A DNA stretch of 64,000 nucleotides, taken from positions 1 through 64,000 of the forward strand of contig NZ_RXHJ01000004.1 in NCBI RefSeq assembly GCF_003955685.1. The letters are read 5' to 3'. A model generated the notes under the pieces. That model was given only the letters and a program-made list of their open reading frames with translations. It was not told the origin of the DNA and did no database searches. Positions within the stretch are counted from its first letter, which is position 1, and every line of letters starts with the position of its first letter. The position numbers and the translations under genes are program-made. This DNA comes from Corynebacterium hylobatis (lineage in GTDB: Bacteria; Actinomycetota; Actinomycetes; Mycobacteriales; Mycobacteriaceae). Positions 34,485-64,000 of the stretch are shown piece after piece.

Positions 34485-35393
34485 TCAGGCCTGGGCGGGT
34501 GCGAGGACGATGTCGAAACGGGTCTTCGCCCAGTCCTGCTCACCCAGCTCCCGCCCGTCAGGCGTCGGGGTGCCGGCCGGCTGCTGCGCAAAGGTCTTGA
34601 TCAACGAGTCCTTGACCCCGAAGACGGAGTCACCGATCTCCAGCTGGGGGTCACCCTCGACGAAGATATGGGTGACCAGGGTGCGCTTCTCAGGTGCGGT
34701 GACCATGAAATGCAGGTGCGCGGCACGCACCGGGGAACGGCCCACCGCCTCCAGCATCTTGCCCACCGGCCCGTCATGCGGGATCGGATACGGCACCGGG
34801 GTCAGCCCCCAGAACCGGTAGGTGCCGTTCTCATCGGTGAACAGGTGCGCGCGTGCCGACATCCGTCCGTCGTCGTACTGGACGTCGTAGAGGCCGTCCT
34901 CGTCGCACTCCCACACCTCGATCCGCGCACCCGCGATGGGTTGGCCGTCGGTGTCGGTGACGGTGCCCTCGATCCAGGCGGGCTGACCTTCGGCACCGAA
35001 GGAGATGTCCCCACCGAGAGCCACCTCGGGGGCGTCATCCAGGAAGAAGGGGCCGAAGACGGTGGCCTCGGTGGCATCCTCATAGGCCTGGTTGTTCACC
35101 GCGATGGTCTGCATCGACGCGCCGAGGGTATCGGAGAGCAGGACGAACTCCTGGCGTTTGTCATCGGTGATGTGTCCGACGGCGGTGAGGAAGTCGATGG
35201 CCTTATTCCATTCTTCTTCCGTGAGGCGCACATCCCGGATGAAGTCATGCAGATGGGTGGTCAACGACTGCATGATCTGCTTCAGGCGCGGATTCTCGCA
35301 GTTGTCGAAGGAGGCGACAACCCGCTCGACGAGTTCCTCCTCCACCTCCTGCTGGGCCGCGCTGATACCGGTCTGGGTGGTTGCCTGCGTCAT
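34485..35393 (-). CDS. rolD: Hydroxyquinol (intradiol) 1,2-dioxygenase
   Basis: Intradiol ring cleavage of hydroxyquinol to maleylacetate is expected. The 302-residue protein has an N-terminal helical dimerisation region and the catalytic beta-sandwich. The Fe(III) ligands typical of the family are visible as Tyr in GLYDVQYDD, Tyr in the [16 protein letters not shown] region, and two His in AHLHFMV. The [11 protein letters not shown] motif is characteristic. Its operon with maleylacetate reductase and an aromatic hydroxylase identifies hydroxyquinol rather than catechol as substrate. The symbol is by analogy to C. glutamicum rolHMD. Confidence 0.85.
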
Positions 35394-35420
35394 TATTCTT
35401 CAGCTTCCTTTTCTGGTGTC

Positions 35421-36512
35421 TTACTGTGCGTACTGCACATCGCCGGTGAGCACGGCCGGGTCATCGCCGTTGAGTGCGGCCGTGAGCAGTGCGGTGAGGT
35501 TGTCGGCGGTGATCTCCCGCGGGTTGTTCGCCGGGAGTTTCTCCAGGACGATGCACACGGTCTCCGGGATACCCTCGGCAGTGAAGCCGTAGTCAGACAG
35601 CTTCTGCGGTGCGTCGACCTGTTCGCGCAGTTTCTGCAGCCCCTCGAGTGCCGTGCCGGTGCCGAAGGCCGCGGCGGCACGCGCCTCGGCCTGCGGTGCG
35701 TGAGGGGCGTTGAAGGCCAGTACATAGGGCAGGACCGTGGCGTGGGTCTGGGCGTGCGGGAGGTTGAAGGTCCCGCCCAGCACATGGCAGATCTTGTGGT
35801 GCAGCCCGGATCCCGCGGAGGCGAACGCCACCGCGGACAGGTAGGCGCCGTAGAGGGCCTCATCCCGCCCGGCGATCGACTGCGGATCAGCGACGATCTT
35901 CGGCAGCCCGGCCGACAGGGCGCGGATGCCTTCGGCAGCCAGGGCGGCGTTGATCGGGTCGGCCTTCGGTCCCCACAGCGAGTCGATGCAGTGGGCCATG
36001 CCGTTGAGCCCGGAGGCCACGGACATGTCCACCGGCAGGGACAGGGTCAGTGCGGAGTCGTAGATCACGGTGGCAGGCAGGACCTTGTGGTCGACACCGG
36101 TGGTCTTACGTGCGGCCTCGGTGAGACCCCACACGTTGGTGGCCTCGGAGCCGGCGTAGGTGGTCGGTACCGCGATGATCGGGATGCCCGTGGTCAGGGC
36201 CACCGCCTTGGCCAGGCCGGTGGTGGAACCCCCGCCGACGCAGACGAGCAGGTCCACACCATTGTCGGTGGCTTTCCGGCGGGCGGTCTCGGCGACCTCG
36301 ACGGGGACGTGCATCACCACGTCCGAGTGCCAGACCGCGACGTCGATACGCGCTGCGACCTGCTCGGCGATCTCGACTTCCCGTTCCCCGGCGATGACCA
36401 TGACCTTGCCCGCACCGAGGCGCTCAACCTCGGCGGACAGGTGGTCGGCTGCCTGACCGTGACCGAACAGCACCCGCTGACCGAGGGTGACGTGCTCAAA
36501 ACTCAATGACAT
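35421..36512 (-). CDS. rolM: Maleylacetate reductase
   Basis: The 363-residue iron-containing-alcohol-dehydrogenase-fold enzyme should reduce maleylacetate to 3-oxoadipate with NAD(P)H. The nucleotide region VCVGGGSTTGLAKAVAL (about 90-106), IPIIAVPTTYAGSEAT and the metal-region equivalents GLNGMAHCIDSLWG and GLHHKICHVLGG are present. It lies between the hydroxylase and the dioxygenase genes, consistent with the resorcinol pathway. The start is an ATG. Confidence 0.87.
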   Translation of the reverse strand: MSLSFEHVTLGQRVLFGHGQAADHLSAEVERLGAGKVMVIAGEREVEIAEQVAARIDVAVWHSDVVMHVPVEVAETARRKATDNGVDLLVCVGGGSTTGLAKAVALTTGIPIIAVPTTYAGSEATNVWGLTEAARKTTGVDHKVLPATVIYDSALTLSLPVDMSVASGLNGMAHCIDSLWGPKADPINAALAAEGIRALSAGLPKIVADPQSIAGRDEALYGAYLSAVAFASAGSGLHHKICHVLGGTFNLPHAQTHATVLPYVLAFNAPHAPQAEARAAAAFGTGTALEGLQKLREQVDAPQKLSDYGFTAEGIPETVCIVLEKLPANNPREITADNLTALLTAALNGDDPAVLTGDVQYAQ

Positions 36513-36554
36513 GTTGTCTGACCTTTCCGTGGCTTATGGGCTCTGGGGAGATTA

Positions 36555-38180
36555 TTACTGGACGAGTGTCGGCTGCGGGCTCAGGTGCAGCAGCTGACCG
36601 AGCCTGTCCAGCTGCGTCTGCAGCTCAGAGGCATCGGCGGCGGTGGCGTAGACGTAGAAGTCCGGGCGGGTGATCACGTAAGCGGCACCGGCTCCGTCCA
36701 GCCAGCGGCTGTAGACACCCTCACTATCCACGACATCGACCTGGTCCGCGTGGTGGCCGACGCTGACGGTGGTGGCCCCGATCGTCTCGAGGGTGGCCAG
36801 CTGTCCGGCGTCGAGCACGGCTGCCGGATCGGTGTTGAGGCCGATGACGGTCCAGCCGCGGCCGACGACATCATCGAACCGGCCCTTGCGTCCCTGGTAT
36901 TCAACGAGGCCCTGCTTGGCCAGCTCACCGCCATGGGCGGCGTCCTGGATCCAGATGCCCGGCCCCAGGTGGGCGACGTCGGTGTTGACGGGGGTGCCGT
37001 CGGAGTTAGCGAGTTCGGCGATCATGCGCTCATCGCGCTTCGCGGCCTCCTCCTCATCGGTGATGCAGATGACGTCGCCGAGCCCCATGGAGAAGTCGAT
37101 GTAGTGGCGGACGTGCTCGCGGCGCTCCTCGCCGTAGGAGTCCAGCAGGTCATCATCGGCCTTGCCGTCGAGGACGAGGTCCAGGCGCCAGGCCAGGGCC
37201 AGGGAGTCCCGGACGCCGGCGCACATGCCCTCACCAGCGAAAGGAGGCATGAGGTGGGCGGCGTCGCCGGCGATGAACGCCCGGCCTGAGCGCCACTGCT
37301 CAGCCCAGCGGGACTCGAAACGGTAGATCGCGGAACGCTCCAGGATCGCCTTGTCGGGAGTGACGCCCCAGGGTTCCAGCAGCTTCCAGGCGTTCTCCTC
37401 GCTGGCCAGCTCCTTGAGGTCCTCGCCCGGCAGTGCCATGAACTCCCAGCGGCGGCGCCCCGGGCCGCCGGGGACGATGGTGGTCGGGCGCTTCGGGTCG
37501 CACAGCTGCCAGTGGTCCGGACCGTACTCCAGTTCCTGGGTCGGCTTGAGATCCAGGATCAGCCAGTCGAAGAAGAAGCCGAGATCATTCATCTCCATGC
37601 CGAGGGAGTTGCGGATGAAGCTGTTCGCGCCGTCGGAGCCGACGGCGTACTTCGCACGGATCTGCGCCTGCTCGGCGTCCGGGTTCTCCACCTCCGGGTT
37701 GTCGGTGATCTCGCCGTACAGGGTGACGGACTCATCATCCTGCTGGAGGTCGGTGACCTTCCAGCCGCAGCGGATCTCGACGTTGTCCATTGTCTCGGCG
37801 ATGCCGCGCAGACGCTTCTCCAGGTCCGGCTGGTAGAACCAGTACCGCGTGCGCCAGCCGGAGTCGGTGATGGAGGTCCAGTCGACCTCCATGAGGGACT
37901 CGCCCTCGGCGTTGCGCCAGGAGTAGAAGTCCGTGTGGTGCTCGATGGCGGCGTCGTTCTCGGAGTCGATGTCGATGTAGCCGAGGATGCGGGCGATCTC
38001 GTGGTCGAAGGTCACGGCGCGGGGACGCTCGTAGAAGGTGGGCCATTTCTCCACGATGATGGCGCGGTGGCCCTTCTTGCCGAGCAGGACGGCGAGCAGG
38101 GTGCCGACCGGACCGCCGCCGACGATCACGACGTCCGTGTCAAAGTTCTGGTTGTCTGCTGTGTTGCCGTTGAGTGACAT
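36555..38180 (-). CDS. rolH: FAD-dependent aromatic hydroxylase (resorcinol hydroxylase-like)
   Basis: The 541-residue class A flavoprotein hydroxylase has the GxGxxG motif [21 protein letters not shown] (about 17-37), the DG motif [13 protein letters not shown] and the GD motif [19 protein letters not shown]. It resembles MhpA-type enzymes. Because it shares an operon with hydroxyquinol dioxygenase and maleylacetate reductase, resorcinol to hydroxyquinol is the best assignment; 3-hydroxyphenylpropionate is an alternative. The ATG at 38180 has GGGAG upstream, and a longer frame runs into the operator region. Confidence 0.83.
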
Positions 38181-38233
38181 GGGCGCGTCTCCCTTTTTGA
38201 TGTGATCTGGAACATGTTGTCTGGCACACATTG

Positions 38234-38247
38234 TGAATCATCATTCA
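38234..38247. promoter_or_regulatory. Probable RolR operator
   Basis: TGAAT-CATC-ATTCA is a perfect inverted repeat in the divergent region between the hydroxylase and TetR genes, followed by another ATTCA and a GATTCA (38259-38265 area). Overlapping repeats of this kind are described for the RolR operator. Confidence 0.55.
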
Positions 38248-38321
38248 TTCATGGACAAGGATTCACCTTTGCGGCCACCCCCGACCACCCCCGGGGCATG
38301 GGTGTGACCTGGGCGATCATT

Positions 38322-38327
38322 TACGGT
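38322..38327 (+). promoter_or_regulatory. -10 box (TACGGT) of the TetR gene, probable leaderless
   Basis: TACGGT fits TAnnnT and ends seven bases before the ATG at 38334. No Shine-Dalgarno precedes the ATG. Confidence 0.4.
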
Positions 38328-38333
38328 GAACGC

Positions 38334-38960
38334 ATGACGAAAACCGACGACCGGCGAAGCAGGCGCCGCGAACAGACCCGGGCGCGGCTTATCGACGCCG
38401 CACGCACGTTGATGGCCGAGCGCGGGTTCAACGAGGTCGGCATCGCCGAGATCACCGAGGCCGCTGACCTGGGCACGGGCACGTTCTACAACTACTTCTC
38501 CTCCCGCGAGCAGATGCAGGCCGCCGTCGCCGAGGATTCGGTGGAGAAGGTCGGTGACATCCTCGACCGTGAGGTCTCCAGCCTGGAGGACCCGGCCGAG
38601 GCCTTCGCCGGGTCACTGCGCCACCTGGTCCGCCATGCGCTCAGCGACCGGGTGTGGGGAGGATTTCTGGTCCAGATGGGCGCGGCCCACCCGGCCCTGG
38701 TACGCATCCTCGGCCCCCGCGCGCGACGGGATCTGCTGCGGGGACTGGAATCCGGCCGGTTCACCATCGACGACCTGGACCTGGCCACCACCTGCACCTT
38801 CGGCTCGCTCATCGCCTCGATTCAGCTGGCGATGGATTCGGAGCCCCGCGAAGACCGCGACCAGATCTTCGCCCGCGCGATGCTGCGGATGGTCGGCGTT
38901 CCCGCCGGGGAGGCCGCCGAGGTCGCGGCACGCCCCCTCCCCGAGATCGACCTCACCTGA
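38334..38960 (+). CDS. rolR: TetR-family regulator (RolR-like)
   Basis: The 208-residue protein has an N-terminal TetR HTH (TRARLIDAARTLMAERGFNE, IAEITEAADLGTGTFYNYFS, about residues 13-55) and a helical ligand-binding C-terminus. It is divergent from the rolHMD-like operon, as in C. glutamicum, where RolR represses resorcinol genes and is released by resorcinol. The ATG at 38334 begins MTKTDDRRSRR; a longer frame would include the operator. It converges on the large LuxR-type gene with a 4-base gap. Confidence 0.8.
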   Translation: MTKTDDRRSRRREQTRARLIDAARTLMAERGFNEVGIAEITEAADLGTGTFYNYFSSREQMQAAVAEDSVEKVGDILDREVSSLEDPAEAFAGSLRHLVRHALSDRVWGGFLVQMGAAHPALVRILGPRARRDLLRGLESGRFTIDDLDLATTCTFGSLIASIQLAMDSEPREDRDQIFARAMLRMVGVPAGEAAEVAARPLPEIDLT

Positions 38961-38964
38961 GCGT

Positions 38965-41289
38965 TCAGCCCGCCTGGCGCAGGCTCTCCACCCAGGTGGC
39001 AACCTGGGTGCGGGAGTTGAATCCGAGCTTGTTGAGGATCCGTTCAACATGCCCCTCAATGGTGCGCGGGGAGAGCACCAGCTTGCCGGCTATCTGACGG
39101 TTGGTCAGCCCCTGGGAAACCAGTTCCACCACCTCCCTCTCGCGGCCGCTCAGCGGGTTGTCCCCCACCGCGCCCGCGGGCTCGGCCTGCGGTGCCCTCC
39201 TGCCCAGGGCCACCGCGATCGCCTCGGTCTTGCTGTCACGCGCCCCCTGCTCCACCCCCTCCGGTGAACGCTCCCCGAGAGCTGCCCGGATCTCGGCGGC
39301 AGAGGCCTCTGAAACCGCGGCGATGTGCGGGCCGAAGGCCTGGATGCTCGTCCCCAGCTCCTGCCAGACGGCGCTGGCGGCGTCGGCAAGCTCCCTTCCC
39401 CTCTCGAAGTCACCGGCCGAGACCGCGATCCACGACAGCAGCTCGACGCTCATCGCCGTGCAGATACCGTCCTGGAAATTCTGCTGGATCCCCAGGGCAC
39501 GGGTGGCCGCCTCCGTCGCCGCGGGATAATCACCCAGCCGCCAGTGGCAGACCCCGGAGATCCACCACAGGTACGACTGATTCCGCTGCTCCCCGTGACG
39601 CTCCGCGATCGCCATCGCCGCGCTACTGATCCGCAGCCCCTCCTCAGGCTCACCCCCGAAGATCTGCGCCATCACCAGCTGGAACATCGCCGTGAGCTGC
39701 GGGACGGTCCGGCCATGGCCCTCATGCTCAGCGATGACCTTCCGGAACTGCTCCGTGGCTGCCACCAGATCCCCGGTGAACACACGGTGCTGGGCCTGCC
39801 AGTGCTGCGCGAAGACCTCCATCTCCGGATCCGGCAACGAACGCGCGATGGACAGCGACACCTCAAGATGATCGGCCGCATCCTGGTGGTCGCCCTGGAT
39901 CAGGGCCACCCACCCGGCCACCCAGGAGGCGGATCCCCGCGCATGCGCAGACAGCTCCGGGTGGCGGAGGATCCGCTCCAGCCAGCCCCGGCCGTCACTG
40001 AGGAACCCACCCGCTATCCAGTGGTAACGCAGGGCAACGGCGATCCGGGCAGCCACATCCTGCTCACCCGGGGTATCCAGCGACCACCTGAGTCCGGCCA
40101 GCAGGTTCGGTCTCTCCGCGCGCGTGGCCGCGAGGGACTCCGCCTGGTCCGGACCATTCCAGGCCGCAAGCCTTGCCTCGACACGCGCCAGATAATGATC
40201 CCGGTGCCGGCGGTGCAGTTCATCCCGCTCCGCAGCATCGGTGAGCAACTGGCTCCCGTATTCGCGGACCGTCATCAGCTGGCGGTAGCGGATCCCCTCC
40301 CCCGTCCGCTCCGTCTGCAGGAGGGACTTGGACACCAGTTGATCCATCAGATCGAAGACCTCGAACATGTCCAGTTCCCCGAAGCCGCAGACCGCCTCCG
40401 CAGCGTCAAGATCCAGGGCATCCGGGAATACCGACAACCGGCGCCACAACAGTTGTTCAGCCTCGGAACACAGCTCATAACTCCAGTCGATCAGGGCCTG
40501 CAGGGTCTGCTGGCGTGGCAGGGTGGTCCGGTCGCCGCGGCTGAGCAACTGAAAACGCTGGTCCAGCCGGTCCAGCAACTGGCCCGGGGTCAGCGACCGC
40601 AGTCGCGTGGCCGCCAACTCGATCGCCAGCGGAATTCCATCCAGGCGGATACACAACTGCGCCACGGACTCCCTGTTCTCCGGAGTCACCGAAAAATCCG
40701 GTACTAGCTGGCGCGCCCGGTCCACCAGCAGTATCACCGCCTCAGAACCCTCAATGCCCACGCCCCCGCTGTCCGACGACGGCGTCGACAGAGGCGCCAC
40801 GACGCGGACCGATTCGGCGACGATGTGCAGCGGCTCCCGGCTCGTGGCCAGGATCCGCACCCCCGGTGCCGCCGCCAGCAGACGGTCCACCAGCTCGGCG
40901 GCCTCCTGGAGCACATGCTCACAATTGTCCAGGACCAGCAGGACCTCCCTGTCCCGGAGATAATCCACCACGCGTTCCAGGGCCACCCGGTTTGACTGGT
41001 CGGGCACCCGCAGGGCCGTCGCCACCGCCGGGGCGACCCGGTCACCGGTACGCAGACTGTCGAGTTCGACCAACCAGACCCCGTCGCGGAAGCTCCTCCT
41101 GGAGCGCTCGGCGATCTCCAGCGCCAGGCGGGTCTTGCCCACTCCCCCGGGTCCCGTGAGAGTGACCAGTCGGGTATCCGCCAGGACCGCCCTGATCTCG
41201 GCGAGCTCCCGGCGTCTGCCGATGAAACTCGTCGTCGAGATTTTCCCGAGGGTGGAACCCCTGCTGGGAGCACCAGAATTTCCGGACAC
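38965..41289 (-). CDS. Large ATP-binding LuxR-family (LAL/AfsR-like) regulator
   Basis: The 774-residue protein has an N-terminal NTPase with Walker A LTGPGGVGKTRLALEIAERS (about 44-63) and Walker B EVLLVLDNCEHV (about 114-125), a helical TPR-like middle (about 330-690) and a C-terminal LuxR HTH (about 708-770: LSGREREVVELVSQGLTNRQ, LSPRTIEGHVERIL). Such proteins are activators switched by ligand and ATP. The start is a GTG with GGAAGG upstream. It is divergent from BVMO module 1, which is its most likely target; the rol genes already have their own regulator. Confidence 0.85.
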   Translation of the reverse strand: MSGNSGAPSRGSTLGKISTTSFIGRRRELAEIRAVLADTRLVTLTGPGGVGKTRLALEIAERSRRSFRDGVWLVELDSLRTGDRVAPAVATALRVPDQSNRVALERVVDYLRDREVLLVLDNCEHVLQEAAELVDRLLAAAPGVRILATSREPLHIVAESVRVVAPLSTPSSDSGGVGIEGSEAVILLVDRARQLVPDFSVTPENRESVAQLCIRLDGIPLAIELAATRLRSLTPGQLLDRLDQRFQLLSRGDRTTLPRQQTLQALIDWSYELCSEAEQLLWRRLSVFPDALDLDAAEAVCGFGELDMFEVFDLMDQLVSKSLLQTERTGEGIRYRQLMTVREYGSQLLTDAAERDELHRRHRDHYLARVEARLAAWNGPDQAESLAATRAERPNLLAGLRWSLDTPGEQDVAARIAVALRYHWIAGGFLSDGRGWLERILRHPELSAHARGSASWVAGWVALIQGDHQDAADHLEVSLSIARSLPDPEMEVFAQHWQAQHRVFTGDLVAATEQFRKVIAEHEGHGRTVPQLTAMFQLVMAQIFGGEPEEGLRISSAAMAIAERHGEQRNQSYLWWISGVCHWRLGDYPAATEAATRALGIQQNFQDGICTAMSVELLSWIAVSAGDFERGRELADAASAVWQELGTSIQAFGPHIAAVSEASAAEIRAALGERSPEGVEQGARDSKTEAIAVALGRRAPQAEPAGAVGDNPLSGREREVVELVSQGLTNRQIAGKLVLSPRTIEGHVERILNKLGFNSRTQVATWVESLRQAG

Positions 41290-41472
41290 AGTTCGCCTTC
41301 CTTCCTGTCGGCGGCGCTACGGGGACAGCCCCGGAGATCCACCCAACGTTAGCGCCCACCCGTATCCCGGACGAGGACCATCACCGGCAGTCCCCGTGCG
41401 CGCATCCGCAGCTACCCGGGTACCTCCGCATACATCCAGGCCATAGGGACCAGGGAGGGATCGGGTGGCGTT

Positions 41473-41478
41473 TAGGGT
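41473..41478 (+). promoter_or_regulatory. -10 box (TAGGGT) of BVMO module 1
   Basis: TAGGGT is the same -10 variant seen upstream of 12365 and 17753. Transcription would start near 41485, giving a leader of about 70 bases. Confidence 0.4.
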
Positions 41479-41558
41479 GATTCCACCCATGACTTCAATC
41501 ACACCGGACCATATCGTATTGCTCCAGACACACCCCTTCAGCCCGTCAGGAGCAGCAC

Positions 41559-43241
41559 ATGTCCCACTCTCAGACCCACGATGTGATCGTCATCGGCGCC
41601 GGATTCGCCGGCCTCTACTCCGTGCACAAGCTGCGCGACCAGATGGGCCTGGACGTCACGGCCTTCGAGGCGGCCTCCGGCGTCGGCGGCACCTGGTTCT
41701 GGAACCGCTACCCCGGCGCCCGCTGCGACATCGAGAGCATCCACTACTCCTACTCCTTCTCCGAGGAGCTGCAGCAGGAATGGAACTGGCCCGAGCGCTA
41801 CGCCGGCCAGCCCGAGATCCTGGACTACCTCAACCACGTCGCCGACCGCTTCGACCTGCGCCGCAACATCCAGTTCAACACCCGGGTGACCTCCATGGTG
41901 TGGGACGAGGAGAACTCCTTCTGGCGCGTGGGCACCGACGACGGAAAGACCACCACCGCCCGCTACGTCATCTCCGGCGCCGGCAACCTCTCCGTCCCCA
42001 AGGAGCCGGACTTCCCCGGCGTGAAGGATTTCCAGGGCGACGTCTACGTCACCGGCAACTGGCCGCAGGAGCCGGTCGATTTCACCGGCAAGCGCGTCGG
42101 TGTCATCGGCAACTGGCCGCAGGAGCCGGTCGATTTCACCGGCAAGCGCGTCGGTGTCATCGGCACCGGCTCCTCCGGTATCCAGGCGATCACCGAGATC
42201 GCCAAACAGGCCGGCCACCTAACCGTCTTCCAGCGCACCCCGAACTTCGCCACCCCGATCGGCAACGGTCCGATCGATCCGGAGCTCTACGCCGACCAGA
42301 AGGCCCGCTACGCGGAACTCCGGAAGGAGGCCCGCAACCACGTCCAGGGCGTCCCCCTCGAGGCCCCGCTGCCTTCCGCCATCGAGGTCAGCGCAGAAAA
42401 GCGCAAGGAGGTCTACGACAAGCGCTACGCCCAGGGTGGCTTCCGCATGTTCCTGTCGACGTTCGCGGACATTTACCACAGCAAGGCATCCAACGACACC
42501 GCCGCCGATTACATCCGCGGGAAGATCCAGGAGCGCGTGGTGGACCCGGCAGTCGCCGAGCTGCTCAGTCCCACCGACCACCCCTACGCCGCCAAGCGCC
42601 CCGCCTTCGAGAACGGCTACTTCGAAGCCTTCAACCAGGACAACGTGGAGCTGGTGGACGTCAAGTCCAACCCCATCGAGCGGGTCACCGCCACCGGACT
42701 GAACACCACCACCGACGAGTACGAATTCGACGTCCTGGTCCTGGCCACCGGCTTCGACGCCATGACCGGTCCCCTGATGGCGATGGGCATCGTGGGCAGA
42801 AACGGCGAGCGTCTGCAGGACAAGTGGGCCGATGGACCGGAAACCTACCTGGGCATCACCGTCAACGGCTTCCCCAACCTCTTCCTCATCACCGGCCCGC
42901 AGAGCCCCTCGGTGCTCTACAACATGCCGCTGGCCATCGAGGACCACGTGGACTTCGCCACCGCGGCCATCGCCCACCTGAACGAGCACGATCTGGCCAT
43001 CATCGAGGCCGACGCCGAGGCAGAGAAGGCCTGGGTGGATCACGCCAACGAGAAGGCCGCGGAATCCCTGCTGCCCGAGGCGAACTCCTGGTTCATGGGC
43101 TCCAACATCCCGGGCAAGCCACGCCGCTGCCTGGTCTACGTGGGCGGCGCACCGACCTACCGCGCAATCTGCGATGAGGTGGTGGCCGAAGGCTACCGCG
43201 GCTTTGAACTCTCCCCGGCCGTGGAACTGGCCCAGCTCTGA
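41559..43241 (+). CDS. Baeyer-Villiger monooxygenase 1 with internal tandem duplication
   Basis: The 560-residue flavoprotein belongs to the BVMO family (ketone plus O2 plus NADPH to ester or lactone). The first Rossmann motif VIVIGAGFAGLYSVHKLRD (residues 10-28), GGTWFWNRYPGARCD and the NADPH loop GTGSSGIQAI (202-211) are typical. Two features are abnormal. The fingerprint FxGxxxHxxxWP reads FQGDVYVTGNWP (158-169), with Val164 in place of His. An 18-residue unit starting GNWPQEP is present twice in tandem (166-183, 184-201), directly before the NADPH loop. Activity is therefore doubtful. The ATG has AGGAG upstream; the esterase gene follows after 58 bases. Confidence 0.87.
   Translation: MSHSQTHDVIVIGAGFAGLYSVHKLRDQMGLDVTAFEAASGVGGTWFWNRYPGARCDIESIHYSYSFSEELQQEWNWPERYAGQPEILDYLNHVADRFDLRRNIQFNTRVTSMVWDEENSFWRVGTDDGKTTTARYVISGAGNLSVPKEPDFPGVKDFQGDVYVTGNWPQEPVDFTGKRVGVIGNWPQEPVDFTGKRVGVIGTGSSGIQAITEIAKQAGHLTVFQRTPNFATPIGNGPIDPELYADQKARYAELRKEARNHVQGVPLEAPLPSAIEVSAEKRKEVYDKRYAQGGFRMFLSTFADIYHSKASNDTAADYIRGKIQERVVDPAVAELLSPTDHPYAAKRPAFENGYFEAFNQDNVELVDVKSNPIERVTATGLNTTTDEYEFDVLVLATGFDAMTGPLMAMGIVGRNGERLQDKWADGPETYLGITVNGFPNLFLITGPQSPSVLYNMPLAIEDHVDFATAAIAHLNEHDLAIIEADAEAEKAWVDHANEKAAESLLPEANSWFMGSNIPGKPRRCLVYVGGAPTYRAICDEVVAEGYRGFELSPAVELAQL
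42054..42161 (+). repeat. Perfect 54-bp in-frame tandem duplication
   Basis: Two identical 54-bp units (42054-42107 and 42108-42161) encode the same 18 residues, from GNWPQEP to KRVGVI. The paralogue at 57045-58697 has a single equivalent segment (GSWPHEG to KRVAVI), so this is a recent duplication. Confidence 0.95.
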
Positions 43242-43299
43242 CCCCTCCACCCCGTCCGGAACGCCGGCTCAGCCGGCACCAGCTGAAAGGAAACAACCC

Positions 43300-44238
43300 A
43301 TGACAGTGGACAGTGCCGTCCAGACCCTCATCAACGGACTTGCGGAGCAGGGCCAGAAACCCTTCGGGGAGATCTCCGTGGCGGAAGGCCGGGCAGTGGT
43401 GGCCTCCTTCACCGGCCTGCAGAAGCCCGCCCGGGAGGTGGCGCGGGTGGTCGACAAGATTATCGACGGTCCCGGCGGTGAGCAGCACCTGCGGATCTTC
43501 ATCCCGGAGAACCAGGGGGCAACCCCGCTCCCCGTGGTCGTCTACTACTACGGCGGCGGGTTTGTGGCGGGCAGCCTCGACGTCGCCGAGGAGTCCAACC
43601 GGGCCCTGGCCAATGACACGGGCGCAATCGTGGTCGCCGCCAGCTACCTGCTGGCTCCCGAGCATAAATTCCCCGCAGCCACCGACGACACCTTTGCCGC
43701 ACTGCGTTGGACTGCGGAACACATCAGCGAATACGGCGGTGACCCGGCACGCATCGCCGTGATGGGCGACAGCGCGGGTGGCAACCTGGCCGCGGTGGCC
43801 GCACAGCGGGCCCGCGATGAGGGCGGCCCGGAGCTGGCCGCACAGGCGCTGATCTACCCGGCCATTGACGCCAACGCCGATACCGAGTCCAAGCGCGAAT
43901 TCGCCGAAGGCTACGTGATCAGCACCGCTGACATGGATTATTTCTGGGGGCAGTACCTCAACTCCCCCGAGGAGGTGGAGGACCCGCGCGCCACCCCCTC
44001 CCGGGGCAATCTGGCAGGCCTGCCGCCGGCCCTGGTGCTCAGCGTCGAGTACGAGGTCCTGCGGGATGAGGCGGAGAACTACGCCGACCAGCTGTCAGCT
44101 GCGGGAGTGTCCGTGGAGAAGGTACGTCTGCCCGGCCTGATCCACGGCGTCTACAACATGTCCGGGGCGATCCCCCGCTGGACCGAGATCCACGAGACCA
44201 CCGTCGACTTCCTCCGGGATAAACTGCAGGTCAATTAA
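43300..44238 (+). CDS. Hormone-sensitive-lipase-type esterase 1 (YGGG variant)
   Basis: The 312-residue alpha/beta hydrolase has the nucleophile elbow GDSAGGN, a likely Asp in SVEYEVLRDE and a His in LPGLIHGVYNM, all typical of the HSL esterase family. The oxyanion motif, HGGG in the family, reads YGGG (Tyr84). It would hydrolyse the ester made by the preceding BVMO. The ATG at 43300 has GAAAGGA seven bases upstream, and a longer frame overlaps the BVMO. A strong terminator follows. Confidence 0.87.
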   Translation: MTVDSAVQTLINGLAEQGQKPFGEISVAEGRAVVASFTGLQKPAREVARVVDKIIDGPGGEQHLRIFIPENQGATPLPVVVYYYGGGFVAGSLDVAEESNRALANDTGAIVVAASYLLAPEHKFPAATDDTFAALRWTAEHISEYGGDPARIAVMGDSAGGNLAAVAAQRARDEGGPELAAQALIYPAIDANADTESKREFAEGYVISTADMDYFWGQYLNSPEEVEDPRATPSRGNLAGLPPALVLSVEYEVLRDEAENYADQLSAAGVSVEKVRLPGLIHGVYNMSGAIPRWTEIHETTVDFLRDKLQVN

Positions 44239-44251
44239 GTCTTGCCCTCTG

Positions 44252-44283
44252 AAAACCGCTGATGGGAACATCAGCGGTTTTTT
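44252..44283 (+). terminator. Intrinsic terminator after BVMO module 1
   Basis: A 13-bp perfect stem (44252-44264 with 44269-44281), a GGAA loop and a run of Ts. It ends the BVMO-esterase operon. Confidence 0.9.
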
Positions 44284-44339
44284 CGTGTCTCCCGTCCATC
44301 CGGGCACTTTACCGGGCCGAGTGGAAACACAGACCCACA

Positions 44340-44367
44340 TTGGTGACCCGTCAACATATGTTATGAT
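44340..44367 (+). promoter_or_regulatory. Promoter of the aldehyde dehydrogenase gene
   Basis: TTGGTG (44340-44345), a 16-base spacer and TATGAT (44362-44367). The palindrome AACATATGTT (44353-44362) overlaps the spacer and the edge of the -10 and may be an operator. Confidence 0.5.
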
Positions 44368-44415
44368 AGTACTTGTCTTTCAAATTGGAGACTTTATTAG
44401 GAAAGGGCAATTACT

Positions 44416-45807
44416 ATGGCTTATCAGACCCTCAACCCCTACACCGGAGAAGTTCTCAAGACTTTCGAGGACGCCACCGAGGAACAGATCGAGGCGGCCA
44501 TCGCCGGTGCCCAGGAGGCATTCCTCAACTGGCGTAACGAGCCGGTGACGGAGCGCGCCGCACTCCTGAAGCGCGCCGCGGACGAACTGCGCGCCAACTC
44601 CCGCAGTTATGCCGAGATCCTCACCCTGGAGATGGGCAAGCTCATCGGCGAGGCCGAGGCCGAGGTCGAACTCTCCGCGAAGATCCTCGAGTACTACGCC
44701 AAGTTCGGCCCCACCCACCTGACGCCGCGTTACCTGCCGGCGGAGGGCTTCGGCGACACCGATGTAGCCCTGGTCAATGAGCCGTTGGGTGTCCTCTACG
44801 CCATCGAACCGTGGAACTTCCCCTTCTACCAGGTCATCCGCATCTCGGCGCCGCAGCTGATGGCCGGCAACACCATCGTGCTCAAGCACGCCGCGAACGT
44901 CCCCCAGTCGGCCCTGGCCATGGAGAAGCTCTACAGGGACGCCGGCGCACCAGAGGGCCTGCTGACCAACATCTTCGCCAACCACGACGCCACCGACCGG
45001 ATCCTCGCCGACCCGCGCATTAAGGGTGTCGCGCTGACCGGTTCCGAGCGCGCCGGTTCCGTCGTCGCCGCCACCGCGGCGAAGAACCTGAAGAAGTCCA
45101 CCCTGGAGCTCGGCGGTGCTGATGCCTTCATCGTCCTCGAGGACGCGGACATCGAGAAGGCCGCCCGCTGGGCAGCATTCGGCCGCCACTGGAATGCCGG
45201 CCAGGTCTGTGTGTCCTCCAAGCGCCTGATCGTGGTGGATTCTGTCGCCGATGAGTTCATGGAGGCCTACCGCGGACATGTGGAGAAGCTCGTCGCCGGT
45301 GACCCCATGGACCCGGAGACCACCCTGGCACCCCTGTCCTCCCAGCAGGCCGCCGATGACCTGGCCGCCCAGGTGGAGATGGCCCGGGGGGAGGGCGTCA
45401 CCGTCGAGACGATCGGCGCTGAGGTCCCCGAGCAGGGCGCCTTCTTCCGGCCGACGCTGCTCACCGACATCCCGGCCGGTTCGAAGACCGCGCACACCGA
45501 GTTCTTCGGTCCCGTCACACAGCTCTACCGCGCGAAGGACGAGGACGAGGCTGTGGACATCGCCAATGACAGCCCCTTCGGTCTCGGTGGTTCGGTCTTC
45601 TCCGAGGACATCGACCGTGCCAAGAAGGTTGCCCGCCGCATCGACACCGGCATGGTCTACATCAACCAGCCCACCGGCGTGAAGGCGGACATCCCCTTCG
45701 GTGGCGTGAAGAACTCCGGCTACGGCCACGAGCTCATCGATCTGGGTATCAAGGAGTTCATCAACCAGAAGGTCGTCGTGGTCAGCGACATCGACGGTTC
45801 CTTCTAG
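44416..45807 (+). CDS. NAD(P)-dependent aldehyde (succinate-semialdehyde-type) dehydrogenase
   Basis: The 463-residue enzyme has EPWNFPFYQVIR, the cofactor loop ALTGSERAG, the general base in LELGGAD, and the catalytic Cys in NAGQVCVSSKR. The sequence TLNPYTGEVLKTF at the start and the overall pattern resemble the GabD/SSADH group, but substrate range in this group is broad. It has its own promoter after a terminator, so it is controlled separately from the BVMO module although it could oxidise aldehydes from it. The ATG has GAAAGG upstream. Confidence 0.83.
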   Translation: MAYQTLNPYTGEVLKTFEDATEEQIEAAIAGAQEAFLNWRNEPVTERAALLKRAADELRANSRSYAEILTLEMGKLIGEAEAEVELSAKILEYYAKFGPTHLTPRYLPAEGFGDTDVALVNEPLGVLYAIEPWNFPFYQVIRISAPQLMAGNTIVLKHAANVPQSALAMEKLYRDAGAPEGLLTNIFANHDATDRILADPRIKGVALTGSERAGSVVAATAAKNLKKSTLELGGADAFIVLEDADIEKAARWAAFGRHWNAGQVCVSSKRLIVVDSVADEFMEAYRGHVEKLVAGDPMDPETTLAPLSSQQAADDLAAQVEMARGEGVTVETIGAEVPEQGAFFRPTLLTDIPAGSKTAHTEFFGPVTQLYRAKDEDEAVDIANDSPFGLGGSVFSEDIDRAKKVARRIDTGMVYINQPTGVKADIPFGGVKNSGYGHELIDLGIKEFINQKVVVVSDIDGSF

Positions 45808-57044: not shown

Positions 57045-58697
57045 TCAGGAGGCCGGAACCGTGGCGAGCACCTCGTGGGCCTCGACACCGACCTGGCCCG
57101 AGGTGAGGAAACCCTCGTACCCGGCGGCGGCGACCTGGCGGCAGATCTCCCGGTAGGTGTCCAGTCCACCCGCGTAGGGCATGAACACCCGCGGTTTACC
57201 GGGAATGTTGGCACCCATGTACCAGGAGGCGGTCTCCGGGTAGAGGGTCTGGGCCGCGATGGCGTTGACCTTCGCGATCCACTCCTCCTGGGCCTCAGCT
57301 GAGGCCTCGATGCGCTCGATACCCTCGTTCTCCAGGTCGAGCAGCATGTCGGAGATCCAGTCCACGTGCTGCTCGATGGAGACGATCATGTTGGTCAGCA
57401 CCGAGGGGCTGCCCGGGCCGGTGACCGTGAACAGGTTCGGGAAACCCGCCACCGCGAGGCCGAGGTAGGACTTGCCGCCCTCCGCCCAGGCCTCATTGAG
57501 GCTCAGACCGTTGCGACCCTGGACGCCCAGGCGCAGCAGCGGACCGGTGATTGCATCGAAGCCGGTGGCCAGAACCAGCACATCGACCTCATACTCCTTC
57601 CCGCCCACGACCGGCCCGCGGGCGCCGATGCGCTCGATGGGGGTGCTGCGCACATCCACCAGGTCGACATTCTCCCGGTTGTAGGTGGCGTAGTAGTCGG
57701 TGTCCACGCAGATGCGCTTGGTGCCGATCGGGTAGGCCTGCGGGGAGATCAGCTCCGCCTTCTCCGGATCCTGGACGATCTCGCGGATCCGCTCACGGAC
57801 GTAGTCGGCGGTGATCTGGTTGGCGGCGTGATCGCTCATCGTGTCGGTGAAGGCGTTCATGAAGGTCGGACCGCCCTGCTCCCAGCGGCGGTCGAGCTCG
57901 GCGCGGACCTCCTCCGGCGGCAGCTCCAGGGCCGCACCGACCGGGGGCTTGACGATGACGCCGGCCGGGGTCTCCCGGACCTTCTCCCGCAGGGCCGGGT
58001 AGATGCGCTTGATCAGTGACATCTCGTCGACGCCGAGCTTGCGGTTGCGGGCGGGCACCGTGTAGTTCGGGGTGCGCTGGAGGACCGTGACGTGCGCGGC
58101 CTGCTGCGCGATGGCCGGGATGGCCTGGATGCCGGAGGAACCGGTGCCGATGACGGCAACCCGCTTACCCGCCAGGTCCACGCCCTCATGCGGCCAGGAA
58201 CCGGTGTGGTAGACCTCGCCGGCGAAGCCCTCCAGCCCCTTGAATTCGGGGACCTGGGAGGCTGACAGGCAGCCCACCGCGGTGACAACGAAGCGGGAGG
58301 TGGTGGTCTCCCCATCACTGGTGGTGGTGATCCACAGCCCGGCCTCCTCATCCCAGACCATGGAGGCGACCTCGGTGTTGAAGGCGTAGGACTCTCGGAT
58401 GCCGAGCTTATCCGCAACAAAGCCGGCATACCGGAGGATCTCGGGCTGGGTGGCCCAACGCTCGGACCAGGTCCACTCCTGCTGGATGTCGTCGTCGAAG
58501 GAGTAGGAGTAGACGATGGATTCGGCGTCGCAACGCGCGCCCGGGTAGCGGTTCCAGAACCAGGTGCCGCCCACATCAGAGCCGCGTTCAAAACCCTGGA
58601 CACTCAGACCGTTCTTGTCGCGCAGCAGGTGCGTGGCGTAGATGCCTGCGAAACCTGCACCGACGACAACAACATCGACATGTGCTGACCTGCTCAT
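57045..58697 (-). CDS. Baeyer-Villiger monooxygenase 2
   Basis: The 550-residue flavoprotein has all BVMO hallmarks: VVVVGAGFAGIYATHLLRD (8-26), GGTWFWNRYPGARCD, an intact fingerprint FAGEVYHTGSWP (FxGxxxHxxxWP) and the NADPH loop GTGSSGIQAIPAI. It should insert oxygen into a ketone; the substrate is unknown. It is similar to BVMO 1 over its full length but lacks the 18-residue duplication. Its ATG overlaps the stop of the esterase by four bases, so the two are coupled. Confidence 0.9.
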   Translation of the reverse strand: MSRSAHVDVVVVGAGFAGIYATHLLRDKNGLSVQGFERGSDVGGTWFWNRYPGARCDAESIVYSYSFDDDIQQEWTWSERWATQPEILRYAGFVADKLGIRESYAFNTEVASMVWDEEAGLWITTTSDGETTTSRFVVTAVGCLSASQVPEFKGLEGFAGEVYHTGSWPHEGVDLAGKRVAVIGTGSSGIQAIPAIAQQAAHVTVLQRTPNYTVPARNRKLGVDEMSLIKRIYPALREKVRETPAGVIVKPPVGAALELPPEEVRAELDRRWEQGGPTFMNAFTDTMSDHAANQITADYVRERIREIVQDPEKAELISPQAYPIGTKRICVDTDYYATYNRENVDLVDVRSTPIERIGARGPVVGGKEYEVDVLVLATGFDAITGPLLRLGVQGRNGLSLNEAWAEGGKSYLGLAVAGFPNLFTVTGPGSPSVLTNMIVSIEQHVDWISDMLLDLENEGIERIEASAEAQEEWIAKVNAIAAQTLYPETASWYMGANIPGKPRVFMPYAGGLDTYREICRQVAAAGYEGFLTSGQVGVEAHEVLATVPAS

Positions 58698-59644
58698 CGG
58701 ACGACCTCCTTGGCTACCTGCTGGCGGATCTTCTCGCCCATGCGCTCGACCACGGCGGCGCTGGAGGGCAGGATGTTGAACATGTTGAGGAAGCCGTGCA
58801 TCTGGCCCTCGAAGACCTCGGTCTCGACGGTGACGCCTGCCTCGGCGAGGCGGGCGGCGTAGGCCTCGCCCTCATCGCGCAGCACATCGTGCTCGGCGAG
58901 GATGACGAAGGCCTCCGGCAGTCCGGCCAGGGACTCCGCGTGCAGCGGGGCGACGTCCTGCTCAGTGCGGCGCTCAGCGGGGACGTAGTGGTTCCAGAAC
59001 CACACCATCGACTCGGTGGTCAGCAGCAGCTGGTTCTCCGGGTCGAGGTAGCTGGGGCGGGTGAAGTCGGCGTCGGTGACCGGATAGACCAGGACCTGGT
59101 AGTCGATCTGCGGGCCCTCAGCCTCGCGGGCACGCAGGGTCATCGCGGCAGCCAGGTTGCCGCCGGCGCTGTCACCGGCGACGACCAGCGGGGCACCGGT
59201 GACGGCGAGCTGATCACGGTTCTCATCGGCCCACTGCAGGGCGGTCCAGCAGTCATCGGCCGGGGCGGGATAGGCGAATTCCGGTGCCTTGCGGTAGTTG
59301 ACCAACACGACGGTGTGGTCGGTGTGCTGGGCCAGCTGGCGGCCGATGGTGTCGTAGGCGGCAATGTCACTGACCACCCAGCCACCACCGTGCAGGTAGA
59401 CGATGATGCCCTGGGGCTGGGCGGAGGGCTTGAGCACACGGACCTGGAAGGGCTCCTGACCCGCGCCGCTGCTCAGCTCGAGGTTCTCCACTTCGGCCAT
59501 CTCGACGCCCGGGCCGATGAGGTCGAGGGTGCCCAGGGCACCGATGCGCGCCTCCTCCGGGGTGGATTCGTGCATCGGCCTGGCATCCGGGTTGGCCGCC
59601 TGCGCCTGGGCCAGGAACTGCTGGGTTGCTTGATCAATAGCCAT
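58694..59644 (-). CDS. Hormone-sensitive-lipase-type esterase 2
   Basis: The 316-residue alpha/beta hydrolase has the complete HSL signatures: oxyanion motif YLHGGGWVVSD (about 83-93), nucleophile GDSAGGNLAAA, a probable Asp in ILAEHDVLRDE and His in FEGQMHGFLNM. It is the first gene of an operon with BVMO 2 and should hydrolyse the ester it makes. The ATG start (MAIDQATQQF) lies downstream of a palindromic operator candidate. Confidence 0.9.
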   Translation of the reverse strand: MAIDQATQQFLAQAQAANPDARPMHESTPEEARIGALGTLDLIGPGVEMAEVENLELSSGAGQEPFQVRVLKPSAQPQGIIVYLHGGGWVVSDIAAYDTIGRQLAQHTDHTVVLVNYRKAPEFAYPAPADDCWTALQWADENRDQLAVTGAPLVVAGDSAGGNLAAAMTLRAREAEGPQIDYQVLVYPVTDADFTRPSYLDPENQLLLTTESMVWFWNHYVPAERRTEQDVAPLHAESLAGLPEAFVILAEHDVLRDEGEAYAARLAEAGVTVETEVFEGQMHGFLNMFNILPSSAAVVERMGEKIRQQVAKEVVR

Positions 59645-61747: not shown

Positions 61748-62209
61748 GGGACCAGGTTATCCCACCTGTTTCGCCGGCTATCGGACAGGCAGAGAGGTCG
61801 GGACCTCAGGGCCCAACCTTAACCTCACTAACCCCTCACTCAGGACCAAGCGAGCAGACAGGTCGACACCTTTTCGACCCCCGGTCGGCCGTGGGTCGAT
61901 TCCGGTAGGAATACCGAACTTCCCCGGGGTGAACGTCACTACACTGTCACTTTCTAGACTTACTGGTGCTAAAAATATAGACTGCTCAGTACATAAAGTG
62001 GGAGACCAGGCCCGCAGGAGCACCCACTACCCTTGCTCATTGTGCTCCCGGACTCAGCGAGGAACATTTGGACCGCTTTCCAGTGTGGAGAAAAGTTGTC
62101 GGACAGATAGCCTCAACACTCAGAGCTCGTCATGCGGTACACGTACCTCACTCCCTCCCGCAGTTCCCGACATCATCCCAAAACCCTGCAGTAAGAAACG
62201 GCATCGATC
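61748..62209. other. 462-base divergent intergenic region
   Basis: No coding frame is supported. An AT-rich stretch (about 61960-62000) may contain promoters, and a short palindrome GGTAC-AC-GTACC lies at 62136-62147. A TAA at 62192 in the frame of the next gene fixes its start at 62210. Confidence 0.55.
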
Positions 62210-64000
62210 ATGGACGGCACCTCAACAGATAAGAAAAAGAACAGCCAGCCCCTTTCCCCGCCCGGTTCAGCGCTCCCGGCCCCCGGCAGTGCCGTTCCTG
62301 CACCCGGTGGTGCTGTTCCCGCCCCTGGCGGCGCTGTTCCGGGTGCCGCTGTCCCTGCACCCGGTGGCGCTATCCCGGCCCCCGGCGGTGCTGTCCCCGC
62401 CCCTGGCGGCGCTGTTACGGGTGCCGCTGTCCCTGCACCCGGTGGCGCTATCCCGGCCCCCGGCGGTGCTGTCCCTGCTCCTGGCGGTGCTGTTCCGGGT
62501 GTCGCTGTCCCTGCTCCTGGCGGTGCTGTTCCGGGTGTCGCTGTCCCTGCTCCTGGCGGTGCTGTTCCGGGTGTCGCTGTCCCTGCTCCTGGCGGTGCTG
62601 TTCCGGGTGTCGCTGTCCCTGCTCCTGGCGGTGCTGTTCCGGGTGTCGCTGTCCCTGCTCCTGGCGGTGCTGTTCCGGGTGTCGCTGTCCCTGCTCCTGG
62701 CGGTGCTGTTCCGGGTGTCGCTGTCCCTGCTCCTGGCGGTGCTGTTCCGGGTGTCGCTGTCCCTGCTCCTGGCGGTGCTGTTCCGGGTGTCGCTGTCCCT
62801 GCTCCTGGCGGTGCTGTTCCGGGTGTCGCTGTCCCTGCTCCTGGCGGTGCTGTTCCGGGTGTCGCTGTCCCTGCTCCCGGTGGCGCTATCCCGGCCCCCG
62901 GCGGTGCCGCTGTTCCCGCCCCCGGCGGTGCTGTCCCGGCCCCCGGCGGCGCTGTCCCTGCTCCCGGCGGTGCTGTTCCGGGTGCCGCTGTCCCTGCTCC
63001 CGGTGGCGCTGTCCCCGGCGGCGCCGTTCCCGCCCCTGGCGGTGCAATTTCAACTACCGTGCCGACGCCTCCAGGTGCTACCGTGCCCGCGCCCGGATCC
63101 AGCGGCTCAGCACAGCAGGACGCGATCCCTGTCGACGGTGAAACCCGGAAGCAGCCCAGGCAACGCTCCGTGCGAACACAGCTGCTGACTCCGTTAACCC
63201 GGAAGCAGTGGTCCATCACGGGCGGTTTCATCCTTCTTGTTCTCATCGTCGGCGCCGCTATCGCCACGCTTGCTGCACGCTGGCTGGTGGGACTTGAGCC
63301 TGTGGCGGAGTTCATCACCCGCTATCCAGGCGAATATGAGCTGCCCGAAAACACTCCGACCGGTATCCCCGCCTGGGTGGGTTGGCAGCACTTCTTCAAC
63401 ATGTTCTTCCTTTTCCTGATCATCCGGACTGGAATCCAGATCAACCGGGAGCGCAGGCCCCGGGGTTACTGGCGGTCGAAGCGGGGAGGGAAGAAGATCA
63501 GTCTGATCCTGTGGATACACCTGGTCCTGGATCTGCTGTGGATCGTCAATGGTGCGGTGTTCTACATCCTGCTATTCGCCACCGGGCACTGGGCACGGAT
63601 CGTACCCACCAGCTGGGAGGTCTTCCCGAACGCAATTTCCGCTGGCCTTCAGTACCTGTCCCTTGACTGGCCCACCCACAATTCCTGGGTCAACTACAAC
63701 AGTCTGCAGGAACTCGCCTACTTCATCACCGTCTTTATCGCCGCCCCCCTGGCGATCCTCACAGGCCTGCGGCTGTCCGAGTACTGGCCGAAGAACAACA
63801 AGGCACTGAGCAATGCTTTTCCGATCGCTCTCGCCCGAGGGGTACACCTGCCCGTGATGGTCTATTTTGTGATTTTCACGGTTATCCATGTGATCCTGGT
63901 ATTCGCCACCGGAGCTCTGCGCAACCTCAACCACATGTACGCCGCGCAGGACTCCACAAACTGGACGGGCTTTGGTCTCTTCGTTCTGTCCCTGGCCGCG
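62210..64000 (+). CDS. Cytochrome b561-like membrane protein with Pro/Ala/Gly repeat N-terminus (partial)
   Basis: The frame runs from an ATG at 62210 through the window end (597 codons, 3' end missing). Residues about 20-285 are a low-complexity tract of PAPGGAV-type repeats. A basic linker follows, and from about residue 333 a multi-span domain with the His residues expected of di-haem cytochrome b561/hydrogenase b-type subunits: GWQHFFNMFFLFLI, LWIHLVLDLLWIVNG and HLPVMVYFVIFTVIHVIL. Basic residues before the first helix suggest the repeat tail is cytoplasmic. An in-frame stop at 62192 fixes the start; the Shine-Dalgarno is weak. Redox partner and role are unknown. Confidence 0.75.
   Translation, partial: MDGTSTDKKKNSQPLSPPGSALPAPGSAVPAPGGAVPAPGGAVPGAAVPAPGGAIPAPGGAVPAPGGAVTGAAVPAPGGAIPAPGGAVPAPGGAVPGVAVPAPGGAVPGVAVPAPGGAVPGVAVPAPGGAVPGVAVPAPGGAVPGVAVPAPGGAVPGVAVPAPGGAVPGVAVPAPGGAVPGVAVPAPGGAVPGVAVPAPGGAVPGVAVPAPGGAVPGVAVPAPGGAIPAPGGAAVPAPGGAVPAPGGAVPAPGGAVPGAAVPAPGGAVPGGAVPAPGGAISTTVPTPPGATVPAPGSSGSAQQDAIPVDGETRKQPRQRSVRTQLLTPLTRKQWSITGGFILLVLIVGAAIATLAARWLVGLEPVAEFITRYPGEYELPENTPTGIPAWVGWQHFFNMFFLFLIIRTGIQINRERRPRGYWRSKRGGKKISLILWIHLVLDLLWIVNGAVFYILLFATGHWARIVPTSWEVFPNAISAGLQYLSLDWPTHNSWVNYNSLQELAYFITVFIAAPLAILTGLRLSEYWPKNNKALSNAFPIALARGVHLPVMVYFVIFTVIHVILVFATGALRNLNHMYAAQDSTNWTGFGLFVLSLAA
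62471..62866 (+). repeat. Eleven perfect copies of a 36-bp coding repeat
   Basis: Eleven identical tandem 36-bp units, each encoding VPAPGGAVPGVA, are flanked on both sides by related but diverged repeats (about 62270-62470 and 62867-63060). The unit length keeps the reading frame. Copy number may vary by slippage. Confidence 0.95.

Follow-up and report, generated by a model that had tools for sequence, protein, structure and literature searches.

Type I Baeyer-Villiger monooxygenases (BVMOs) have been defined by four sequence motifs in the passages of PMC9044951 devoted to them, which also assign the fingerprint to the linker between the flavin adenine dinucleotide (FAD) and the reduced nicotinamide adenine dinucleotide phosphate (NADPH) domains; BVMO motif definitions are likewise given in parts of PMC9552169 and PMC10682829. 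Here, we describe a BVMO-like flavin monooxygenase gene of Corynebacterium hylobatis which carries a 54-base-pair (bp) tandem duplication next to this fingerprint, located in the first 64,000 nucleotides of contig NZ_RXHJ01000004.1 (forward strand; assembly GCF_003955685.1), hereafter called the window. Its best solved relative is phenylacetone monooxygenase (PAMO; E 3.1e-180 in a PDB search), and PAMO (1w4x and mutants) has the same two-Rossmann fold. Unlike the C. hylobatis enzyme, which displays 32 residues between the WP of the fingerprint and the GTGSSG loop and a valine in the fingerprint, PAMO has a single copy, 14 residues in this interval and the fingerprint histidine. A second solved BVMO, OTEMO (3uov and others), carries six more residues than PAMO at the very linker site concerned, but these are unrelated in sequence, show no duplication and number 6 as against 18.

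For the gene context and for the repeat, other systems offer parallels. The acmA-acmB operon of Gordonia sp. TY-5 serves the conversion of acetone via methyl acetate to methanol and acetate, as outlined in part of PMC6215540, and such a pair of a BVMO and an esterase gene occurs twice in our window; the likeness is one of genes alone, the first pair in C. hylobatis is followed by an aldehyde dehydrogenase gene, and no duplication is mentioned for AcmA/AcmB in the relevant sections of PMC6215540. A 57-bp tandem duplication at dop of Mycobacterium tuberculosis Erdman, a related actinomycete, is similar in size, and its copy number is reported as variable; it represents promoter variation, according to the part of PMC12817950 dealing with it, while our duplication lies mid-coding sequence. 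The MoxY isoforms were considered as a further parallel and set aside, since those described in part of PMC6315744 differ at their termini and not at the insert site, and have no bearing here.

The gene and the elements of its repeat, all on the plus strand, are as follows:

41559 to 43241, + strand: BVMO-like flavin monooxygenase gene of 560 amino acids carrying the duplication (open frame, PDB matches, Pfam FMO-like)
42030 to 42065, + strand: BVMO2-type fingerprint FQGDVYVTGNWP, with Val at the His of the pattern (pattern as given in the motif passages of PMC9044951)
42048 to 42057, + strand: GTCACCGGCA, upstream arm of an imperfect 10-bp direct repeat, putative slippage site (DNA search)
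42053 to 42165, + strand: full exact period-54 stretch, 54 + 59 bases, inside which the unit can be placed anywhere
42054 to 42107, + strand: copy 1 (G166-I183) of the 54-bp unit, looped out in the prediction (repeat match; model confidence under 50 at residues 168-184)
42108 to 42161, + strand: copy 2 (G184-I201) of the 54-bp unit, predicted native strand before GTGSSG (repeat match; model strand 197-201)
42156 to 42165, + strand: GTCATCGGCA, downstream arm of the imperfect 10-bp direct repeat (DNA search), present also at 42102-42111
42162 to 42179, + strand: GTGSSG, glycine-rich loop of the NADPH Rossmann fold, intact

The original prediction, made from the letters of the window, had reported two identical in-frame 54-bp copies at 42054-42161, and both Tandem Repeats Finder (42048-42165, period 54, 2.2 copies, 98% matches) and an exact comparison agree. 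The copies stand head to tail, so that GNWPQEPVDFTGKRVGVI is read twice ahead of GTGSSG. With 59 consecutive period-54 matches, the whole exact stretch measures 113 bp and allows six registers for the unit, of which the reported one is a valid choice. We scanned 321 kb for exact tandem arrays with units of 15-400 bp, namely the window, a further 197 kb of the 3.07-Mb host genome and 60 kb of its nearest relative. Apart from the 54-bp repeat, the scan revealed a single array, with a 36-bp unit and likewise in the window, and because only one other exact array was seen, chance is excluded as the source of the 54-bp repeat. Among other organisms, 582 kb of loci scanned in the same way yielded two short 15-bp arrays.

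As to how the duplication arose, its unit ends GTCACCGGCA and GTCATCGGCA form an imperfect direct repeat, GTCA[C/T]CGGCA, alike in 9/10 bases with CGGCA exact. Exact head-to-tail copies with short homology at their ends are what slippage-type events leave behind, and the end repeats would fit replication slippage or another microhomology-driven event as the likely route. A mobile element was also considered and rejected, there being only two copies and nothing else suggestive of one, although no dedicated mobile-element search was made. The true state could also be a single copy, doubled by an error of assembly or sequencing, the host genome being a draft (3.07 Mb, 45 contigs, 99.97% complete). 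Against this, the 113-bp stretch would fit within a single read of 150 bases, provided that the assembly was built from reads of this length, and no other such duplication appears in the 197 kb of other host-genome stretches. Short-read assemblers, moreover, collapse such repeats more often than they create them, and we give an artefact only a slim chance.

Comparison with close relatives places the event in time. Applying a cut-off of E <= 1e-185, we found orthologues in 3/242 Corynebacterium genomes including the host, namely in C. hylobatis itself, in Corynebacterium lemuris YIM 101645 (L008; protein 97% identical, gene order common to both over 14 kb at 93% DNA identity) and in a third genome at 70%. 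Both other orthologues have one copy, which points to a single-copy ancestral state, and the duplication is present only in the host. At 42101 and 42155 the two host copies each have a T; the corresponding base is C in C. lemuris and in the 70% orthologue, and G in two Rhodococcus loci. Because both copies hold this lineage-derived base, the duplication would be later than the split from C. lemuris, and by parsimony the simplest order would be the split, then the C-to-T change, then the duplication, a timing that depends on one third-codon site. The view that the duplication is recent is thus borne out by the C. lemuris orthologue together with this site. By itself, the identity between the copies is weak evidence of recency, because at the divergence of the host and C. 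lemuris genes (63/1629 bases) 54 unchanged bases would be 12% likely even if the duplication dated back to the split.

A protein search scored on residues 166-210 only gave at least 120 proteins among the matches listed, of which 55 were aligned; the two-copy form is absent from these 55, a single one of which (P0166) has 1 extra residue. As the database was clustered at 90% identity, the C. lemuris cluster could conceal another two-copy protein. A literature search joining "Baeyer-Villiger monooxygenase" and "tandem duplication" returned plant gene families only, judged by title, and no literature naming "Corynebacterium lemuris" was found.

The protein reveals the first Rossmann motif GxGx2[GA] (GAGFAG, residues 13-18, its three glycines kept in 53/53 rows of a close-clade alignment), the BVMO1 motif [GA]GxWx4[FY]P[GM]x3D (GGTWFWNRYPGARCD, residues 43-57) and the second Rossmann motif GxGx2[GA] (GTGSSG, residues 202-207). 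The BVMO2 motif FxGx3Hx3W[PD] is missed, as its histidine is replaced by valine (V164, 42048-42050), likewise in C. lemuris. Because three of the four motifs are present and the His of the second fingerprint is absent, we name the protein BVMO-like: it is a BVMO by homology and fold which fails the pattern as stated in PMC9044951, and ketone oxidation is predicted. At the His position, the 53 rows show Leu 36, Val 4, Met 4, Gln 3, Ser 3, Phe 1, Ala 1 and His 1, the lone His row being the window's own paralogue, while His is kept in 40/56 alignments to mostly more distant loci; the whole clade with its altered fingerprint may differ in cofactor use or chemistry. The cofactor and catalytic positions D57, R226, T227, K346 and R347, to which we take certain PAMO residues to be the counterparts, are constant in 53/53 rows.

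Between the fingerprint and the loop of the NADPH Rossmann fold, 95/96 relatives have a segment of one length, to which the host adds 18 residues. Judged by these sequences, the insert is extreme, yet the linker site is not untouchable: besides the six residues of OTEMO, four gammaproteobacterial genes have five extra residues there, and because of these cases a disturbance of cofactor binding or specificity, or inactivation, as foreseen by the original prediction, is plausible but not certain. The four genes belong to two loci (L036 and L037) with two neighbouring BVMO genes each, and all carry the 5-residue insertion just after the W/Y-P of the fingerprint.

Modelled with AlphaFold2 with and without the insert, the protein is predicted to loop out copy 1, which is disordered at residues 168-184 (pLDDT, a per-residue model confidence, under 50), while copy 2 forms the strand 197-201 directly before GTGSSG; outside the insert the model still matches PAMO. 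The insert had been placed in the beta-strand leading to GTGSSG, which is one of several equivalent registers of the repeat, the sequence being intact at either edge of the insert, and is not the register favoured by the model, in which copy 1 is in disorder and copy 2 in the strand.

From these data, we consider it probable that a slippage duplication, absent from C. lemuris, is tolerated as a loop, and that the enzyme folds and works unchanged or somewhat less well. Slippage between the near-identical 10-bp repeats GTCA[C/T]CGGCA would have produced the in-frame duplication; the 18 extra residues would form a disordered loop just after the BVMO fingerprint, copy 2 would rebuild the NADPH-binding strand, and one copy would be easily lost again. 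The allele would then be private, young and without a function of its own, probably neutral or mildly harmful. Neither the event nor the enzyme is of a new kind.

Several points weigh against the insert being tolerated in this way. The length being constant in 95/96 relatives, the addition may cost more than "somewhat". With the insert, and not in the control model, pLDDT also falls under 50 at 58-60, 143-147, 399-402 and 510-523; the low confidence of the insert itself is partly built in, the alignment there consisting of gaps only, and low-confidence stretches were left out of the structure alignment. Where they span the insert, Pfam matches lose length or score (PF13738, 60.7 vs 68.9 bits), the copy number depends on one draft assembly of 45 contigs, and a very young allele would look undecayed even if dead. 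The 18 residues might instead break the linker between the fingerprint and the NADPH fold, leaving an inactive enzyme and a very young open-frame pseudogene; the uniform segment length and the four further places of lower confidence speak for this, as does a paralogue 13.8 kb off, 52% identical and paired with a hydrolase gene of its own. Considering that the fold is otherwise kept in the model and that other BVMOs hold extra residues at this site, we regard inactivation as rather unlikely.

Selection on the gene bears on these readings to a limited extent. The ratio of nonsynonymous to synonymous substitution (dN/dS) between the host and C. lemuris is 0.140, compared with 0.087-0.177 for five neighbours and about 0.11 and 0.08 for two further ones, so that relaxed selection, looked for in the gene against these neighbours, was not found. 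Its 18 amino-acid differences fall on the host branch (7), on the C. lemuris branch (4) or are unassignable (7). Missing signs of decay are no proof of function, because a mutation so young would barely leave any. That the insert is adaptive, a new loop selected for changed cofactor handling or substrate range, would accord with the position of the fingerprint in the FAD-NADPH linker described in PMC9044951, and with the segment after it naturally varying by a few residues; a second lineage with the two-copy form was not found, however, and the gene is without sign of altered selection, which makes adaptation quite improbable.

The original prediction had further suggested that the gene may switch between on and off states, the exact repeat collapsing and re-forming between an active one-copy and an inactive two-copy form. 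In M. tuberculosis Erdman, promoter tandem repeats, including the 57-bp one, altered their copy number at rates of 10^-2 to 10^-3 per chromosome (section cited above of PMC12817950), and 38-bp direct repeats led to precise deletion between them at about 1000-fold over background in Mycobacterium smegmatis (in the part of PMC3519483 on such repeats), and by analogy instability of the 54-bp repeat as such is plausible. Switching itself does not hold up well: 54 is a multiple of three and the frame is kept in both copy-number states, a return from one copy to two would have nothing but the 9/10-base match to build on, and the two-copy form is confined to one lineage, with two other Corynebacterium orthologues lacking the repeat. 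Nor is the repeat kept across related lineages, as it would be in a phase-variable locus, judging by these two orthologues among the 242 Corynebacterium genomes. We find such a switch very doubtful, and just as scarcely probable that the duplication is a first step of loop evolution, in which one slippage event doubled the entry strand of the NADPH domain and so created a reversible switch in the length of the FAD-NADPH linker, in frame in either state, by which cofactor handling would be toggled.

If the duplication, tolerated as a loop or otherwise, is real in culture, it offers a natural experiment in which a 97%-identical one-copy orthologue can be set against the two-copy form for the effect of an 18-residue insert at the FAD-NADPH linker, and it also lets the collapse rate of a perfect 54-bp coding repeat be measured in Corynebacterium. 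The wider meaning is small unless the one-copy and two-copy forms have different activities or occur together within a population.

The surroundings of the gene include the following features:

43300 to 44238, + strand: alpha/beta-hydrolase (esterase-like) gene directly downstream, likely in the same transcription unit (Abhydrolase_3, E 3.8e-69; ATG at 43300 taken, longer frame from 43174)
44416 to 45807, + strand: aldehyde dehydrogenase gene (Aldedh, E 1.7e-140)
57045 to 58697, - strand: single-copy BVMO paralogue (51-52% identical, 13.8 kb between the genes)
58694 to 59644, - strand: alpha/beta-hydrolase gene just upstream of the paralogue (Abhydrolase_3, E 2.8e-71)

The single-copy state of the paralogue, as it had been described, is correct. 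BVMO-hydrolase pairs thus occur at 41559-45807, with the aldehyde dehydrogenase gene after, and at 57045-59644; elsewhere, P0152, P0179 and P0219 (of which P0219 is partial according to its source) are single chains that unite a BVMO domain with a PF07859 hydrolase domain. A simple consensus scan of 41200-44500 gave no sigma-70-type promoters or terminators. Beside the BVMO gene, 34485-38960 holds an intradiol dioxygenase, an iron-containing alcohol dehydrogenase, an FAD-binding monooxygenase of the aromatic hydroxylase type and a TetR regulator, presumably an aromatic-ring degradation cluster, and a LuxR/ATPase-type regulator (38965-41289) points away from the BVMO gene. The minus-strand frame 62173-63318, which runs across the 36-bp array, has no Pfam match; the array itself (62312-63045) comprises about 20 copies, and its perfect part, 410 bp at 62468-62877, contains more than 11.
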